This document shows positions 1 to 11,400 of a stretch of DNA of 64,000 nucleotides, in pieces. The notes under the pieces were generated by a model. It did not search any database and had not been told where the DNA came from. It worked only from the letters and a program-made list of their open reading frames with translations. This DNA comes from Halomonas aestuarii (GTDB lineage: Bacteria; Pseudomonadota; Gammaproteobacteria; Pseudomonadales; Halomonadaceae). The first letter of the stretch is position 1. Each line of letters opens with the position of its first letter. The translations under genes and the position numbers were made by a program. Location of the stretch: NCBI RefSeq assembly GCF_001886615.1, contig NZ_CP018139.1, forward strand, positions 1,116,001 to 1,180,000. The letters run 5' to 3'.

Positions 1-1008
1 GCCGAGGCCACGCCGGTCGAACTCGCCACCGACGACACGCCGCTCGGCCATGCCCGCGCGCCCAGCCGGACGATCCGCGAGCACTGGTGGATCGCCAGCT
101 ACTCGGCGCTGCGCACCGGCGCCACCCCGGATGAGGAAGCTGAATCCGCCGTCCAGGCCGAGCCGGCCCCCGAGCCCACCACCGCCGACGAGGCCACGGC
201 GATGGAGGTGATCGACGAGCCCTTCGACGCGGCGGCTTCCACGGTGAGCGAGGGCTCGCTTCACCGCTTCCCCCGCGGCCCCTCGGCGGGCACCTTCCTG
301 CACGGCCTGCTGGAGTGGGCCGGCGAGGAGGGCTTCGCCCGGGTGGCCCAGGACGCCGAGATGCGCGCCGACACCCTGGCCCGGCGCGCTAACCGCCGCG
401 GCTGGGAGGGCCAGATCGCCGCCCTCGAACAGTGGCTGCCGGAGCTACTGACCACGCCGCTGCCGGTGCCGAATTCGGACGATGGCGAGGCCGCGCCGCT
501 GCGCCTCGATGCCCTGGACGGCTACCGGGTCGAGCTGGAGTTCTGGTTCGCCGCCCACCGGGTGAACACCCGCCGACTGGACGCCCTCGTAAGCGCTCAC
601 ACACTCGGCGGCCGGCCGCGGCCGGCGCTCGAGCCCGATACCCTCAACGGCATGCTCAAGGGCTTCATCGACCTGGTGGTGGAGCACGAGGGGCGCTTCT
701 ACGTGCTCGACTGGAAGTCCAACCACCTGGGCGCCGACGACGCCGCCTACACCGAGGCGGCGATGGGTGAGGCCGTGCTCGAGAAGCGCTACGACGTGCA
801 GTACTGCCTCTACCTGCTGGCCCTGCACCGGCTGCTCGCGGCCCGGCTGCCGGACTACAACATCGAGCGCCACCTGGGCGGGGTGCTCTACGTCTTCCTG
901 CGCGGCACCCGCGCGCCCTCCCGCGGCGTGCACGCCGAACGCCCGCCGAGCGAGCTGATCCTCGCGCTCGATACCCTGTTTCGCGCCGCCGAGGAGGCCG
1001 CCGCATGA
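1..1008 (+). CDS. recB: RecBCD nuclease/helicase subunit RecB, C-terminal part
   Basis: The gene enters from before the window; the frame is open from base 1 and about 335 C-terminal residues are visible. RecB is the 3'-5' helicase and nuclease subunit of the RecBCD recombination and exonuclease complex. Visible marks are the SYSAL segment at the helicase/nuclease linker, FPRGPSAGTFLH at the start of the nuclease domain, and the PD-(D/E)XK core GFIDLVVE...YVLDWKSNHLG followed by QYCLYLLAL. The D and DWK residues are the expected metal-binding set. The stop overlaps the recD start by 4 bp (ATGA at 1005-1008), so the two genes are probably translationally coupled. An acidic, alanine/proline-rich linker lies between the SYSAL region and the nuclease domain. 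Confidence 0.96.
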   Translation, partial: AEATPVELATDDTPLGHARAPSRTIREHWWIASYSALRTGATPDEEAESAVQAEPAPEPTTADEATAMEVIDEPFDAAASTVSEGSLHRFPRGPSAGTFLHGLLEWAGEEGFARVAQDAEMRADTLARRANRRGWEGQIAALEQWLPELLTTPLPVPNSDDGEAAPLRLDALDGYRVELEFWFAAHRVNTRRLDALVSAHTLGGRPRPALEPDTLNGMLKGFIDLVVEHEGRFYVLDWKSNHLGADDAAYTEAAMGEAVLEKRYDVQYCLYLLALHRLLAARLPDYNIERHLGGVLYVFLRGTRAPSRGVHAERPPSELILALDTLFRAAEEAAA

Positions 1009-3200
1009 TGCCGGATACCCCGAACCACACTGCCGCGCCCGAAGCCGCGCTGATGCAAGCGCCCGAACAGGCGCTGGCCAATCACGCGGCGCTCTTCGCC
1101 CTGCTCGACCGCTGGGTGGCGCGCGGCTGGCTGCGCTCGCTGGACCGCGCCTTCGCCGCCTTCCTGCATCGCGAGGCGACGGCGGCCAACGGGGTGAGTG
1201 AAGCCTCACCCCTGCTGTTGCTGGCGGCCGCACTCGCCAGCCACCAGCTCGGCCGCGGCCACGTCTGCCTGGATCTCACCCAGACGCTCGCCACGCCGGA
1301 CCTCGCGCTCTCGCTGCCGCCGGAGGGCGACAGCCTGGAGGACCCGCCGCCGCTGCCCAGCCGGGTGATGGCCGCGCTGGAGCTGGACGCCTGGCGTGCG
1401 GCGCTGGCCCAGCCGGAGCTGGTCGCCGAGGGCCCCGGCAGCACCCCGCTGGTGCTCGCCGGAAGCCGAGAGCGCCCCCGGCTCTACCTGCGCCGCTACT
1501 GGCAACACGAGCAGGATATCCACAGCCGGATCAATGAGCGGCTCGGCGAGGCAAAGAGCGACGACGAGACCCCGGATGCGGCCCGCCTGCGCCCAATCCT
1601 CAACGCCCTCTTCCCCAACCGGAGCGATGCCCCGCACGCGATCGACTGGCAGAAGGCCGCCTGTGCGCTGGCCGGCCGCTCGCGCTTCGCGGTGATCACC
1701 GGCGGCCCCGGTACCGGCAAGACCACCACCGTGGTGCGCCTGCTCGCCCTGCTCCAGGCGCTGGCCCTCGGCGAAAATGGGGGTGAAGGCGAGGGTGAGG
1801 GAGAACAGGCCCTGCGCATCCGCCTGGCCGCCCCTACCGGCAAGGCCGCCGCCCGGCTCAACGAATCCATCGCCGGCCAGGTGGCGAAGCTCGACCTCGA
1901 CGGCCTGGCCGACGACCCCGAGCGGCTGCGAAGCGTCATCCCCAAGGAGGTCTCGACGCTGCACCGGCTGCTCGGCTCCCGACCCGACACCCGCCGCTTC
2001 CGCCACGACCGCCACAACCCGCTGCCGCTGGACGTGCTGGTGGTGGACGAGGCCTCGATGGTGGATGTGGGCATGATGGCCGCGATGCTCGAGGCGCTGC
2101 CGCCCCGGGCGCGGCTGGTGCTGCTCGGCGACAAGGACCAGCTCGCCTCGGTGGAGGCCGGCTCGGTGCTCGGCGACCTGTGCGCCCGGGCCGAGGGCGG
2201 CCACTACACCCCTGCCACCGCCGAGTGGCTGGGAGAGGCCACCGGCCAGCCTCTGCCCGCAAAGACGCTGGACGCCGACGGCCAGCCGCTGGACCAGGCC
2301 ATCGCCATGCTGCGCGTCAGCCACCGCTTCACCGCCGACAGCGGCATCGGCCAGCTGGCCGCGGCGATCAACCTCGAGGCCGCGCCCGCCGCCAAGCGCC
2401 ACGCCATCACCACGGCGCTTACCCACGGCTTCGCGGACCTCTCGCACCACAAGCTTTCCGCCGACGACGAGCGCGGCCTGGCCCGCCTGGCCGTGACCGG
2501 CTGCCCCGAGCGCTTTCCGAATGCCAAGGCAGCCGATGCGCCGCCGGTGGGCTATCGCCACTTCCTGAGCGTGATGACCGAGCAGCGCCCGGCCGACCAG
2601 GCGGATCAGCAAGACTTCGATGACTGGGCAAGACAGGTGCTCGCGGCCCACGGCGACTTCCAGCTGCTGTGCGCACTGCGCCGCGGCCCCTGGGGCGTGG
2701 AGGGCCTGAACGAGCGGGTGCGCCAGGCGCTGGAGCAGGAGAAACTGATCGACAGCGAGGACGGCCGCCAGCGCTGGTACCCCGGCCGCCCGGTGCTGGT
2801 CACCAAGAACGACTACGGCCTGGGGCTGATGAACGGCGATATCGGCATCACCCTGGACATGCCGCGCCCGGGCGCTGTGCCCGGCGACGGCAGCCGCCGC
2901 CTGCTGCGGGTGGCCTTCCCCGCCGGCGACGGCACCGATCGCATCAAGTGGGTGCTGCCCTCGCGCCTGCAGGCGGTGGAGACGGTGTTCGCGATGACGG
3001 TGCACAAGTCCCAGGGCTCGGAGTTCACTCACGCCGCCCTGGTGCTGCCCGACGCGCCGAACCCCATCCTCACCCGGGAGCTGGTCTACACCGGCATTAC
3101 CCGCGCCCGCCACTGGCTGACGCTGGTCGAAACCGGCCGCGGCCAGCTGATGGACGCGGCGCAAAGGCGAGTGATGCGAGTGAGTGGGTTGGGGAGTTGA
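1005..3200 (+). CDS. recD: RecBCD helicase subunit RecD
   Basis: RecD is the 5'-3' superfamily 1B helicase of RecBCD. The 731-residue product has an N-terminal RecD domain, Walker A GGPGTGKTTT near residues 233-242, Walker B DEASMVD, LGDKDQLASVEAGSVLGDL and the C-terminal UvrD_C_2 segment with AMTVHKSQGSE and YTGITRARHWLTL. It overlaps recB by 4 bp; a second ATG lies directly after the first. The last dozen codons use AT-ending codons (CAA, AGG, CGA, AGT, TTG), unlike the rest of the gene. The final ~237 bp are present again, diverged, at 3821-4061. This suggests that the present 3' end arrived with the inserted gene downstream. Function of the intact gene is certain; the replacement is inferred. 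Confidence 0.96.
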   Translation: MMPDTPNHTAAPEAALMQAPEQALANHAALFALLDRWVARGWLRSLDRAFAAFLHREATAANGVSEASPLLLLAAALASHQLGRGHVCLDLTQTLATPDLALSLPPEGDSLEDPPPLPSRVMAALELDAWRAALAQPELVAEGPGSTPLVLAGSRERPRLYLRRYWQHEQDIHSRINERLGEAKSDDETPDAARLRPILNALFPNRSDAPHAIDWQKAACALAGRSRFAVITGGPGTGKTTTVVRLLALLQALALGENGGEGEGEGEQALRIRLAAPTGKAAARLNESIAGQVAKLDLDGLADDPERLRSVIPKEVSTLHRLLGSRPDTRRFRHDRHNPLPLDVLVVDEASMVDVGMMAAMLEALPPRARLVLLGDKDQLASVEAGSVLGDLCARAEGGHYTPATAEWLGEATGQPLPAKTLDADGQPLDQAIAMLRVSHRFTADSGIGQLAAAINLEAAPAAKRHAITTALTHGFADLSHHKLSADDERGLARLAVTGCPERFPNAKAADAPPVGYRHFLSVMTEQRPADQADQQDFDDWARQVLAAHGDFQLLCALRRGPWGVEGLNERVRQALEQEKLIDSEDGRQRWYPGRPVLVTKNDYGLGLMNGDIGITLDMPRPGAVPGDGSRRLLRVAFPAGDGTDRIKWVLPSRLQAVETVFAMTVHKSQGSEFTHAALVLPDAPNPILTRELVYTGITRARHWLTLVETGRGQLMDAAQRRVMRVSGLGS
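2964..3200 (+). repeat. 3' end of recD, first copy of a direct repeat
   Basis: This stretch, the functional recD terminus, matches 3821-4061. From the GTG TTC GCG ATG codons onward I count about 22 differences in roughly 215 aligned bases, close to 90% identity, mostly at third codon positions. The repeat flanks an inserted AT-richer gene. Homology starts near CGCCTGCA in both copies, with a one-base indel shortly after. Confidence 0.85.
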
Positions 3201-3203
3201 TGT

Positions 3204-3701
3204 TCACGGGGCGCCAAACAGCGCCTCGTAGACCTCCACGGCACTTTCGTATTTGACGAAATGGCTTTTGGGGATGTGACGAATCGCAGGGCGCTCCGCC
3301 TTGATCCCTTCCGCATTGCCCTTGGTGTGCTTTGCCACCTTGAACCCCGAGAGATCAGGCAGCGGCTCTCCCGGTGAACCGCCGAAGATCAGGAATGGGC
3401 CCAACTCTAACGTCTCGGCATCGAATTGAATCCAGACCACCACGCCTGACGGCTTGCCACCAAGCGCCGTATGCACGTTCTGCTTGGCGGTTCTCGCCTC
3501 TCGACTGGAAGCCTTGAGCTGGAGATGGCGGACAAAGCCATTTTCTTCAGCAATCAGATCGTATCCGCTGTTGTCGACTTCTGGTTTTGCAACTTCTAGC
3601 CTGCAGCCTCTCTCAAGCCAGGAATGCTTGAGCAATTCACCGACGAACAGATGTTCAATCAAGCGCTCTCGGTACGACGAGTGGATGAAGTGTTGTTTCA
3701 A
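3204..3701 (-). CDS. PD-(D/E)XK nuclease-like protein inserted after recD
   Basis: This 165-residue protein is of no family I can name. Its N-terminal half shows the layout of a PD-(D/E)XK nuclease core: Glu16 in the first helix (RERLIEH), Asp48 in SGYDLI, and Gln61-x-Lys63 in HLQLKAS, resembling the D...QxK form of Mrr-like and Holliday-junction enzymes. A conserved-looking middle follows (KPSGVVVWIQFD, GPFLIFGGSPG, KVAKHTKGNAEG). The start is TTG at 3701, chosen because AGGAG lies 8 bp upstream. The gene faces recD and ends 3 bp after its stop, and is clearly AT-richer than its neighbours. It sits alone between two copies of the recD 3' end. I infer a DNA-acting, possibly phage-defence role; no activity is shown by sequence alone. 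Confidence 0.7.
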   Translation of the reverse strand: MKQHFIHSSYRERLIEHLFVGELLKHSWLERGCRLEVAKPEVDNSGYDLIAEENGFVRHLQLKASSREARTAKQNVHTALGGKPSGVVVWIQFDAETLELGPFLIFGGSPGEPLPDLSGFKVAKHTKGNAEGIKAERPAIRHIPKSHFVKYESAVEVYEALFGAP

Positions 3702-3820
3702 TTTTAATCTCCTCTAGCAACAGCACTGCATGCATATCACACCGAAAATTAGCCACTAGGTCAGGGAAAATTTTTCCTTTCAGAGACGAAAAACATTACA
3801 CCAAGTAGATACTACTCTCA
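3702..3820. other. AT-rich leader of the inserted gene
   Basis: This AT-rich stretch lies between the inserted gene and the second recD copy. On the minus strand it contains AGGAG just before the TTG start and several AT-rich hexamers, such as TAATGT, that could act as a -10 element. No clear -35/-10 pair can be assigned. I see no integrase site or inverted repeat at its edge. Confidence 0.4.
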
Positions 3821-4061
3821 CGCCTGCATGTGGTGGATGAGGGTGTTCGCGATGACGGTGCACAAGTCCCAGGGCTCGGAACTCATCCACGCCGCCCTGG
3901 TGCTGCCCGACGCCCCCAACCCCATCCTGACGCGGGAGCTGGTCTACACCGGCATCACCCGCGCCCGCCACTGGCTCACCCTGGTCGAGACCGGCCGCGG
4001 CCAGCTGCTGGACGCGGTGGAGCGGCGGGTGATGCGGGTGAGCGGGCTGGGAGCCGGATGA
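3821..4061 (+). pseudogene. recD: Displaced 3' end of recD (second copy)
   Basis: This fragment encodes the last ~72 residues of RecD again (VFAMTVHKSQGSE through the RHWLTLVETGRGQL region), with F to L, T to I, M to L, A to V and Q to E changes against the intact gene, then a stop at 4061. It has no start of its own in the recD frame; the join upstream carries a one-base shift. The copy keeps GC-ending host-like codons and no internal stop, so it looks like the original chromosomal recD terminus, recently cut off when the insert came in. A small ATG-initiated reading frame at 3828 exists but is unlikely to be a real gene. Confidence 0.85.
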
Positions 4062-4190
4062 GCATTGGCACCCGCTTGTTTTAGCACTATCTTTAAATGC
4101 TTATATTGCAGGTGGCTGGCAGGTAAGCGCTCACCGCGAACGCCAGAAAGGACACGTCGACGATCACCCCAGGACCGGGAGAGCCGCCCT

Positions 4191-5396
4191 ATGTCGTCAC
4201 CCATCACCAGAGGCCGGTTGAACCGGCTGACCGGTCAGTTTCACGAGCCCGGCAGGGAAGCGATGTATCGCCGGGATATCGCGCCCAGGGTGCGACGCGA
4301 GTCCTGCCTGGCGCTCTGCGTGGCGGCCCTGGTCTTCGGCATGTTTGCCATTTCCGACTACCACTATGTCGGCATGGGCACCCCGCTCACCCTGCTGCTC
4401 GCCATGCGCCTGCTGGTGGTCGCGTCCTGTCTGGTACTGGCCCTCATGATCGGACGCTGGGGCGACTATTCCCGCAAGGCCTGGCTGCACGCCCTGCCCC
4501 TCTGGATACTGGCGACAGGCATCATCCTGATCGTGCCCTTGCGCCCCGAGAGCCTATCCACCCAGGTCACCGCGGTGGCGATGGCCACCATGGCGTTCTA
4601 CCTGCTGATCCCCAACCTGCTGCCCATCGTGGCCCTCGCGAGCCTCTACCTGAGCCTGGGCTTCCTGGCCTCGGCGGTGATGGTGGCGGACATTCCCGCC
4701 GTGGTGGCACTGCGCATTGCGCTGCTGCTGGTCATGGCCAATGCCGTGGGCTTCTTCGCCCTGCTGCGCCTGGAAAAGCTGCAGCGAAAACAATATGCGC
4801 TCCTGCAGGAAGAGCGGTCCCAGAACCAGCAGATGGCCGAGGAAATCGCTCACCGCAAGTCGCTGGAAGCCCAGCTGCGCAGGGTCGCCGAACGGGATGT
4901 CCTGACGGGCCTGGACAGTCGCGTTCATTTCATGACGCGAGCCCAGGACCTGCTTCAGCGGTCACAGTTCGACAAGTCGCCCTTCAGCCTGATGATGATC
5001 GACGTGGACCACTTCAAGGCCATCAACGATACCTGGGGACACAGCCAGGGCGATCGCGTGCTGGCCACGATCGCGGACACCTGCAAGCGATCCCTCCGGC
5101 CCCAGGACGTGATCGGGCGTTTCGGCGGCGAGGAATTCATCGTGGCCCTGCCGGACACTCACCTGGAGGACGCTCGAATGGTGGCGGAGCGGCTGCAGCG
5201 TAAGGTCGCCGAGCTGCCGGTGCGGGAGGACATGCCCGACCACCGCCTGACCGTCACCATCGGTATCGCCGGAGGCCACGAGGAGGCGACCGACTTGCCC
5301 TCCCTGATCCAGTCGGCGGACCAGGCCCTGTATGCCGGCAAGCACGGCGGCAGGAACCGGGTGGTGATGAGTGACGAAGGGAGAGCCAAGGCGTGA
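4191..5396 (+). CDS. Membrane-bound diguanylate cyclase (GGDEF)
   Basis: This 401-residue protein should make c-di-GMP from two GTP. About six hydrophobic segments lie between residues 37 and 192 with no large extracytoplasmic domain. A short coiled coil (about 195-230) leads into a GGDEF domain beginning at RDVLTGLDSR. The active site is GGEEF at 312-316; an RxxD product-inhibition site (RPQD, 303-306) lies five residues before it, so feedback control is likely. I chose ATG 4191 over an upstream in-frame ATG at 4065 because GGGAG precedes it and the upstream part reads as non-coding and crosses an AT-rich patch. It stands alone after the recD remnant. Confidence 0.88.
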   Translation: MSSPITRGRLNRLTGQFHEPGREAMYRRDIAPRVRRESCLALCVAALVFGMFAISDYHYVGMGTPLTLLLAMRLLVVASCLVLALMIGRWGDYSRKAWLHALPLWILATGIILIVPLRPESLSTQVTAVAMATMAFYLLIPNLLPIVALASLYLSLGFLASAVMVADIPAVVALRIALLLVMANAVGFFALLRLEKLQRKQYALLQEERSQNQQMAEEIAHRKSLEAQLRRVAERDVLTGLDSRVHFMTRAQDLLQRSQFDKSPFSLMMIDVDHFKAINDTWGHSQGDRVLATIADTCKRSLRPQDVIGRFGGEEFIVALPDTHLEDARMVAERLQRKVAELPVREDMPDHRLTVTIGIAGGHEEATDLPSLIQSADQALYAGKHGGRNRVVMSDEGRAKA

Positions 5397-5497
5397 AGGG
5401 GAAGAGGCTCGTAAAGTGATACGCGGCAGTTGGTCAGCTTTCGGCGACAGGCGGCCATGGGGTCTTGTCTGACATCACTCCTGGGCTCAGCCGCCGG

Positions 5498-5830
5498 TCA
5501 TGTTGACTGAGGCCGACCATAGTCTTCGAAGGACTGCTCCACACCCCGTTCGGCCTTGTATTCCACATACCGGGCAATCTGGAGCTCATCCCTCTCGAAG
5601 CATTCTCGCTCTTCCAGCGCCTTCATTGATGGCCAGCGTTCTACTCCGATGTAGTCCCATTCACTATCACTTTCTGTACAGTCGATCATGGAGATCGCCG
5701 TCATTCCCAGGTCATCAAGATTAACCCGATCACGCACCATGAATTGTCTTTGCTCTTCCTCGGAAAGCTGGAAGAACGAAGGCTTCATCTTGGCAAAAAA
5801 GATCCTGACGACAGGCGTTTCATTCTTCAT
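5498..5830 (-). CDS. Conserved hypothetical protein, 110 aa
   Basis: I do not recognise a named family. The small soluble protein begins with a beta-strand-like VVRIFFAKMKP and has SEEEQRQFMVRDRVNLDDLGM, a MIDCTES strand, WDYIGVERWPSM and ERDELQIARYVEYK. Spacing of strands and helices suggests a dimeric alpha/beta barrel (ferredoxin-like) fold, which is inference only. It faces the preceding diguanylate cyclase convergently. Codon use is less GC-biased than that of its neighbours. Confidence 0.7.
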   Translation of the reverse strand: MKNETPVVRIFFAKMKPSFFQLSEEEQRQFMVRDRVNLDDLGMTAISMIDCTESDSEWDYIGVERWPSMKALEERECFERDELQIARYVEYKAERGVEQSFEDYGRPQST

Positions 5831-11202: not shown

Positions 11203-11243
11203 AGGTGGCGGCGGGGGCATCACTTTGGTGTTGCCCGCCACCT
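11203..11243 (+). terminator. Hairpin after the dioxygenase gene
   Basis: AGGTGGCG at 11203 pairs with CGCCACCT ending at 11243, extended by partly paired GC bases around a TTTG loop. There is no good T-run, so it may be a weak or rho-aided end. It marks the left side of the AT-rich island. Confidence 0.4.
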
Positions 11244-11400
11244 CAGCCCGATGGTGACATAGTGCTGACCTACGGCGGCATAACCAGCACCCGCCTGACT
11301 CACTTTGATCGATACAAGCGATTCAAAAGTACATATAAAAATATCAAAAAAATATCCTGCGCCCCAACAACGGAAATACGTTTTTTCTTAATAAATGGAC

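Follow-up and report, generated by a model that had tools for sequence, protein, structure and literature searches.

The DNA analysed here, referred to as the window, is a stretch of 64,000 nucleotides from Halomonas aestuarii. It hosts an intact recD gene, which encodes the alpha subunit of exodeoxyribonuclease V, and the 3′ end of this gene is present a second time further downstream (Table 1). The two ends form a direct repeat of 213 nt at 90% identity (2981-3193 and 3839-4051), which blastn joins over 253 nt at 87%, in line with the identity of about 90% given in a preliminary description of this DNA. The sole gene between the copies is antisense, with its edge 3 bp past the recD stop codon. 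Its GC content is 0.55 versus 0.71 in the kilobase up to that stop, thus the earlier account of a single AT-richer gene right after recD holds as well. The same account took the downstream copy to lack a stop codon. This is an error, because the copy has an open frame that ends in a TGA at 4059-4061. The well-kept part of the repeat does run from 3839, but the copy does not start there: an HMM match begins at 3773, and the sequence from 3773 to 3838 is decayed.

Table 1. Features of the recD locus in the window, with the evidence for each.
Feature	Position	Strand	Evidence
recD, exodeoxyribonuclease V alpha subunit, intact	1005..3200	+	ORF; TIGR01447 561 bits (cut-off 310)
Joined copy of the recD 3′ end, own-clade type	2981..3193	+	Repeat, tree, diagnostic sites
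G-rich rare-codon recD tail, common in the genus	3180..3194	+	Codon counts, genome search
Cargo gene, 165 aa, PD-(D/E)XK nuclease-like	3204..3701	-	ORF; weak PF11645 and PDB 2ost matches
Downstream recD-end copy, decayed 5′ part	3773..3838	+	HMM match from 3773; alignment
Downstream recD-end copy, well-kept part, open to TGA	3839..4061	+	Own-clade to 3905, mostly other-clade from 3914
Spacer, directly behind recD in G085 and similar genomes	4062..4187	+	Alignment
GGDEF diguanylate cyclase gene, start uncertain	4188..5396	+	PF00990 E 2e-45

The duplication of the recD end is far beyond chance. With an HMM built from 79 recD ends, and spanning about 1.2 kb of recD, the downstream copy scores 260 bits; across 878,083 bases from other loci the score never exceeds 8.2 bits. 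Elsewhere in the window, a weak match to this HMM at 11223-11316 (15.6 bits, E 0.0021) is possibly a very old recD-end remnant. Judged by eye, the stretch behind the stop codon of the GGDEF gene (5397-5460) may hold a remnant of the recD tail together with a CAGCTTTCGGCC-like sequence, of a kind that is frequent behind recD in relatives. There was no Rfam match in window 2800-5600.

Origin of the two recD ends

In order to place the two ends we compared them at 12 diagnostic sites, where the window's clade differs from a second clade. All 12 are of the own-clade type in the joined end, which is also among the 17 rows that represent this clade. In the downstream copy, each of the four sites up to 3905 has the own-clade type, and seven of the eight beyond have that of the other clade. 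In the tree, the downstream copy lies to the side of the second clade (99/94), the joined end to that of its own, and an AU test rejects holding the two together (p 0.0196). The copies therefore do not pair as a simple tandem duplication would. To judge from the diagnostic sites, the downstream copy is a chimera, with a 3′ part of another clade, and the two copies, being of different clades, do not come from one target. The layer that holds the nuclease-like gene may have carried a recD end from a close relative, indistinguishable from the resident end. These results bear on the earlier proposal that the insert arrived by recombination with a long duplication of the gene end. This proposal stands in its outline, but not in its assignment of the joined end as foreign and the downstream end as the lineage's own.

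The earlier account had suggested looking across the genus for an empty site, and such an arrangement is present in the sister genome G085. In G085, which is a different species, recD is followed directly by the spacer and GGDEF gene of the window's downstream side, without the nuclease-like gene (window +599..+2168 aligns with G085 -261..+1308 at 86.5%). Its GGDEF gene is the nearest of 16 to that of the window (100/99), and a further recD end lies behind it. The arrangement with both copies is not found in all related genomes. Elsewhere, homologues of the GGDEF gene are followed by recD-end copies, and we read this gene as cargo of an older layer. We infer that the GGDEF layer, with a recD end, preceded the nuclease layer, which was then added in front.

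Recurrence in the genus and family

When the 77-aa recD end was sought in 90 genomes of the same genus, 84 had a match and 22 had two or more. The recD regions of 79 of the 84 were read, all but those of G013, G037, G043, G044 and G066, with less than 1.5 kb behind recD available in 5 of the 79. An extra partial recD 3′ end of at least 40 bits is found in 23/79, and in 20 of these it lies behind recD on the recD contig. The other three are G031 (another contig, which may adjoin), G033 (another contig) and G074 (about 365 kb away). Five further genomes have weak recD-end pieces alone. In G027, one of the 22 genomes with two or more matches, the second match is part of a frame of 690 aa, probably another full recD. 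The end of recB serves as a comparison: among the 85 of 90 genus genomes with a match to its last 77 aa there is no partial recB end, and second matches in two genomes are both in long frames (1326 and 1250 aa).

Across 99 genomes, namely the 79 and 20 of other genera that were mostly picked for having two matches, we count 41 displaced copies above 20 bits in 32 genomes. These fall into 24 groups by their left context, two of which have 8 and 7 members (PAP2-like and GGDEF, respectively). Although the HMM spans so much of recD, 36 of the 41 copies reach the recD terminus. Except for a 97-nt piece at 647-743, their starts are scattered over hmm 728-1118, though with clusters. By our reading, a deletion between two GTGCTGCCC repeats that recurs in several copies accounts in part for one of the clusters, the one in which the window's clade switch falls.

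Outside the genus, 26 genomes have two or more matches; of 15 that were fetched, 7 have displaced copies in the fetched stretch, and one of five fetched genomes with a single match has a fragment. In the whole family, 265 genomes have a match and 48 of these have at least two, with second matches outside the genus inspected in a minority of cases. In a sample of the order, each of the 142 matching genomes from outside the family has a single match, the query being less sensitive there. A recD end on contig C14 of G132 (L241, 8980-9205) lies near a glutamine-synthetase-like gene. Since the recD contig of G132 stops 3.4 kb past the gene and may be contiguous with C14, this end was left out of the count of ends remote from recD.

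Cargo behind recD

The cargo varies between genomes and is rich in anti-phage genes. We chose 107 of the 146 ORFs of at least 170 aa in the 5 kb behind recD and scanned 102 of these. At E <= 1e-10, the PADLOC models matched include AriA (7 proteins), mad3 (6), PtuA (5), GajA (4), Old (4), NsnB (4) and Drt8 (3). The same scan of 35 other ORFs of the window gave no matches, hence anti-phage genes are enriched behind recD, as a constant core gene, when the 102 ORFs are compared with this one-genome control. Single cases include GajA with GajB in G014, OloB in G015 and a type I methyltransferase in G024. PAP2 proteins, HicB proteins and the GGDEF gene are further cargo.

The clearest recent transfer is between G003 and G024, whose first cargo is 96.6% alike over 1414 bp versus 70% identity of the recD bodies. 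On another contig of G033 there is a recD end that is 85% identical to that of G201, from another genus, and 75% to its own; it directly precedes what reads as a DNA methylase gene. In G074, what reads as an acetyltransferase gene is flanked by two recD ends, which share 95-96% identity with the window's clade but 80-86% with that of G074 itself. Most displaced copies elsewhere are nearest to the recD ends of their own clade.

Searches for possible vehicles gave nine plasmid records with a match, five of them annotated as recD. Among these is a 229-kb Halomonas plasmid (NZ_CP130702.1, L239) that carries recB and recD. One more Halomonas ‘plasmid’ has a full recD match. The phage search returned one 35-base match, and viral contigs gave 12 loci at 42-62% identity.

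The recD tail

The recD gene ends with GTG AGT GGG TTG GGG, codons that are rare elsewhere in recD. Most genomes use AGT in just one of the 11 serine columns and TTG in just one of the 55 leucine columns, both in the tail; GGG is the majority choice in 3 of 37 glycine columns, two of them inside the tail. The AT-ending last codons of the joined copy had previously been taken as a mark of foreign origin. The same codons are usual in the genus: among the genomes that share the residue, AGT is used in 62/79, GGG in 65/79, TTG in 52/76 and the final GGG in 44/70. The rare-codon tail is thus common in the genus, and the codon argument for a foreign joined end falls.

Of the 79 tails from the genus, 55 have the 17-base motif with up to two mismatches, as do 11 of the 20 from other genera. 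Its 15-base core occurs a single time in the window's genome, and sequences diverge right past it (0.674 mismatches). We see no special protection of the tail in displaced copies, where it has 0.176 mismatches versus 0.138 for its surroundings (average of 19/29 copies). Four G-tracts with loops of at most 12 occur in 34 of 79 tails, and synonymous resampling gives a mean of 1.7 and a maximum of 6, for genomes that are related and not independent. The tail is predicted to be quadruplex-capable, and this capability would be conserved over genera; the quadruplex reading is kept as an idea because the related genomes are not independent.

A bolder version of this idea, which we regard as doubtful, is that the recD 3′ end and its G-rich tail are the attachment module of a new integrase-free cassette system. 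Here the recD end and cargo together would be the mobile unit, the quadruplex-capable tail would mark or trigger the crossover, and defence genes would accumulate behind the RecBCD operon somewhat as integron cassettes do behind attI.

How the insertions may arise

Insertions behind recD recur, are restricted to its 3′ end, bring varied and defence-rich cargo and include chimeric and foreign copies, with no tyrosine recombinase nearby in 10 genomes. We put the probability at about one half that the recD 3′ end is an insertion hotspot of the family without an integrase of its own, fed by homology-driven recombination of recD end plus cargo. Under this explanation, DNA from a relative, with a recD end and then cargo, would recombine with the resident recD end. 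recD would be kept intact, the cargo would be placed directly behind it and a truncated recD 3′ end would be left on the far side. Repeated rounds would build cargo layers separated by recD-end fragments, which would decay or be refreshed by later recombination. In the window, the nuclease-like gene would be the newest layer, before the older GGDEF layer. The engine would presumably be RecA-type homologous recombination, with either a circle or a one-sided fragment as the incoming DNA.

Support comes from the partial ends of recD (23/79 genomes) versus none for recB (85 genomes), and from the displaced copies, their diversity of context (41 copies, 24 groups) and their arrival at the terminus (36/41). 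It also comes from the chimera in the window, the foreign ends in G033 and G074 and the empty site of G085. Finally, the 73 tyrosine recombinases of 10 genomes are all either on a contig without recD or more than 100 kb away from it, which supports the same explanation and agrees with the original remark that no integrase is seen.

Several results count against it. In G003 and G024 the near-identity begins at the recD tail and not inside a long recD stretch. Over 14 picked pairs of genomes that share cargo, the likeness of the recD end shows no consistent excess over what the recD body would lead one to expect (-3.4 to +2.1 sd); a recD end that hitchhikes at length with its cargo is therefore rejected as a rule. 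The starts of displaced copies form clusters, with the window's clade switch (3905-3914) inside one of them, and the AU test is merely on the border of rejecting a tree that keeps the downstream copy in its own clade (p 0.055). The order of layers is not strict either, as the nearer copy is the weaker one in G022 and G051.

We favour homology-driven insertion over a recombinase acting in trans, which is possible, though we hold it to be distinctly less probable. This enzyme, encoded elsewhere, would act at a fixed site in the recD end, either the G-rich tail or a core near codon -50, and the element would supply a substitute gene end. The left boundary at the tail in G003 and G024 fits this, as does the conserved rare-codon tail. 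So does the position of the window's clade switch, which shares one stretch with the starts of the copies that follow GGDEF in G085, G029 and G068. However, no tyrosine recombinase lies near recD in the 10 genomes, PF00589 is absent from the 25 families listed, out of 102 from Pfam that the cargo sample contains, the copy starts are spread over positions 728-1118 of the HMM, and displaced copies keep the tail no better than its surroundings.

It is improbable that the insertions are mostly old and vertically inherited, with a few ancient events behind recD, then loss and decay and little present mobility. The two large groups of copies with a common left context, PAP2-like and GGDEF, and the closeness of most copies to the recD genes of their own clade speak for such a history; the number of left-context groups, the foreign copies in G033 and G074, and cargo that is so much more alike than the recD bodies beside it speak against it.

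The nuclease-like gene

We consider the nuclease to be a passenger and not the engine of the insertion. The protein matches PF11645 with an E of 0.0016 and 18.9 bits, under the cut-off of 26.1, and its profile finds only 2ost in the PDB (E 0.048); this family includes a homing endonuclease. It has 1017 relatives at E <= 0.001, with loci in several phyla by their record titles, and an 88% identical protein from Halomonas caseinilytica is among the named nearest. The gene is present in 13 of 275 family genomes and in 3 of 90 genus genomes. The latter are the window, G054 (beside recD, truncated) and G071 (away from recD). In at least four genomes (G071, G206, G220 and G259) it is on a different contig from recD.

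In G054 (L083, L114) the nuclease gene behind recD is shortened by an apparent transposase gene, IS1380-like by reading. The far recD end is not visible there because the contig ends at this gene.

Flank duplication is not a habit of the nuclease family, with a direct flank repeat at just 10 of 80 other loci. Three of the ten, from Vibrio and Aliivibrio (L033, L042 and L061), lie among several repeats of about 120 bases and may be integron arrays. Homing, in which the nuclease would cleave recD and insert a copy of its own gene, the duplication being a by-product, would fit its weak likeness to PF11645 and 2ost. We nevertheless hold it to be very unlikely from the distribution of the gene over genomes, with the gene beside recD in only two, other cargo accompanying most recD-end copies and flank repeats so infrequent in the family.

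Comparison with known systems

When phage 21 or e14 integrates at icd, the element supplies a substitute 3′ end for the gene and the old end comes to lie on the far side. The recD locus is similar in that the gene end is replaced and the old end is found beyond the insert. It differs in having no integrase gene nearby, and with copy starts that are scattered but clustered it may lack a single fixed junction. No site-specific recombinase of such an element's own was found at recD, either among the tyrosine recombinases of 10 genomes or in the Pfam families listed for the cargo.

Insertion with long target duplication, in which cargo lies between long direct copies of the target, is reportedly known for restriction-modification genes from work of the Kobayashi group. 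The preliminary description had drawn this parallel, and it holds for the cargo between two long direct copies, the lack of an integrase and the empty site. It fails for the origin of the copies, which are mixed and not taken from one target, and the recD site is further set apart by its reuse across the family, its layers and its varied cargo.

Hotspots without an integrase have been described as puzzling, and recombination at the flanking core genes has been proposed for them, by Oliveira et al. 2017 (PMC5635113). The recD locus is alike in its variable region beside a core recombination gene, the lack of an integrase and recombination in the flanking core gene. That model is one of clean double recombination; the recD locus instead keeps truncated copies of the flanking gene as scars. 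The core defence hotspots of Pseudomonas aeruginosa (PMC10250203) are likewise integrase-less and have defence genes behind constant core genes with no obvious mobile element. Their authors expect no recombination scars; the recD locus has scars, and its core gene is recD. There is no mention of gene-end scars in the consulted parts of these two papers, and insertions at the recD end are undescribed in the titles and abstract openings of the papers retrieved on recD, Halomonas, defence islands and hotspots.

Many bacterial hotspots have no integrase, and the scars at recD may show how such defence hotspots are built. With recD-end scars in place, donors, junctions and layers can be read, and the mechanism can be tested in the laboratory. 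The locus of RecBCD is itself tied in this way to the accumulation of anti-phage genes.
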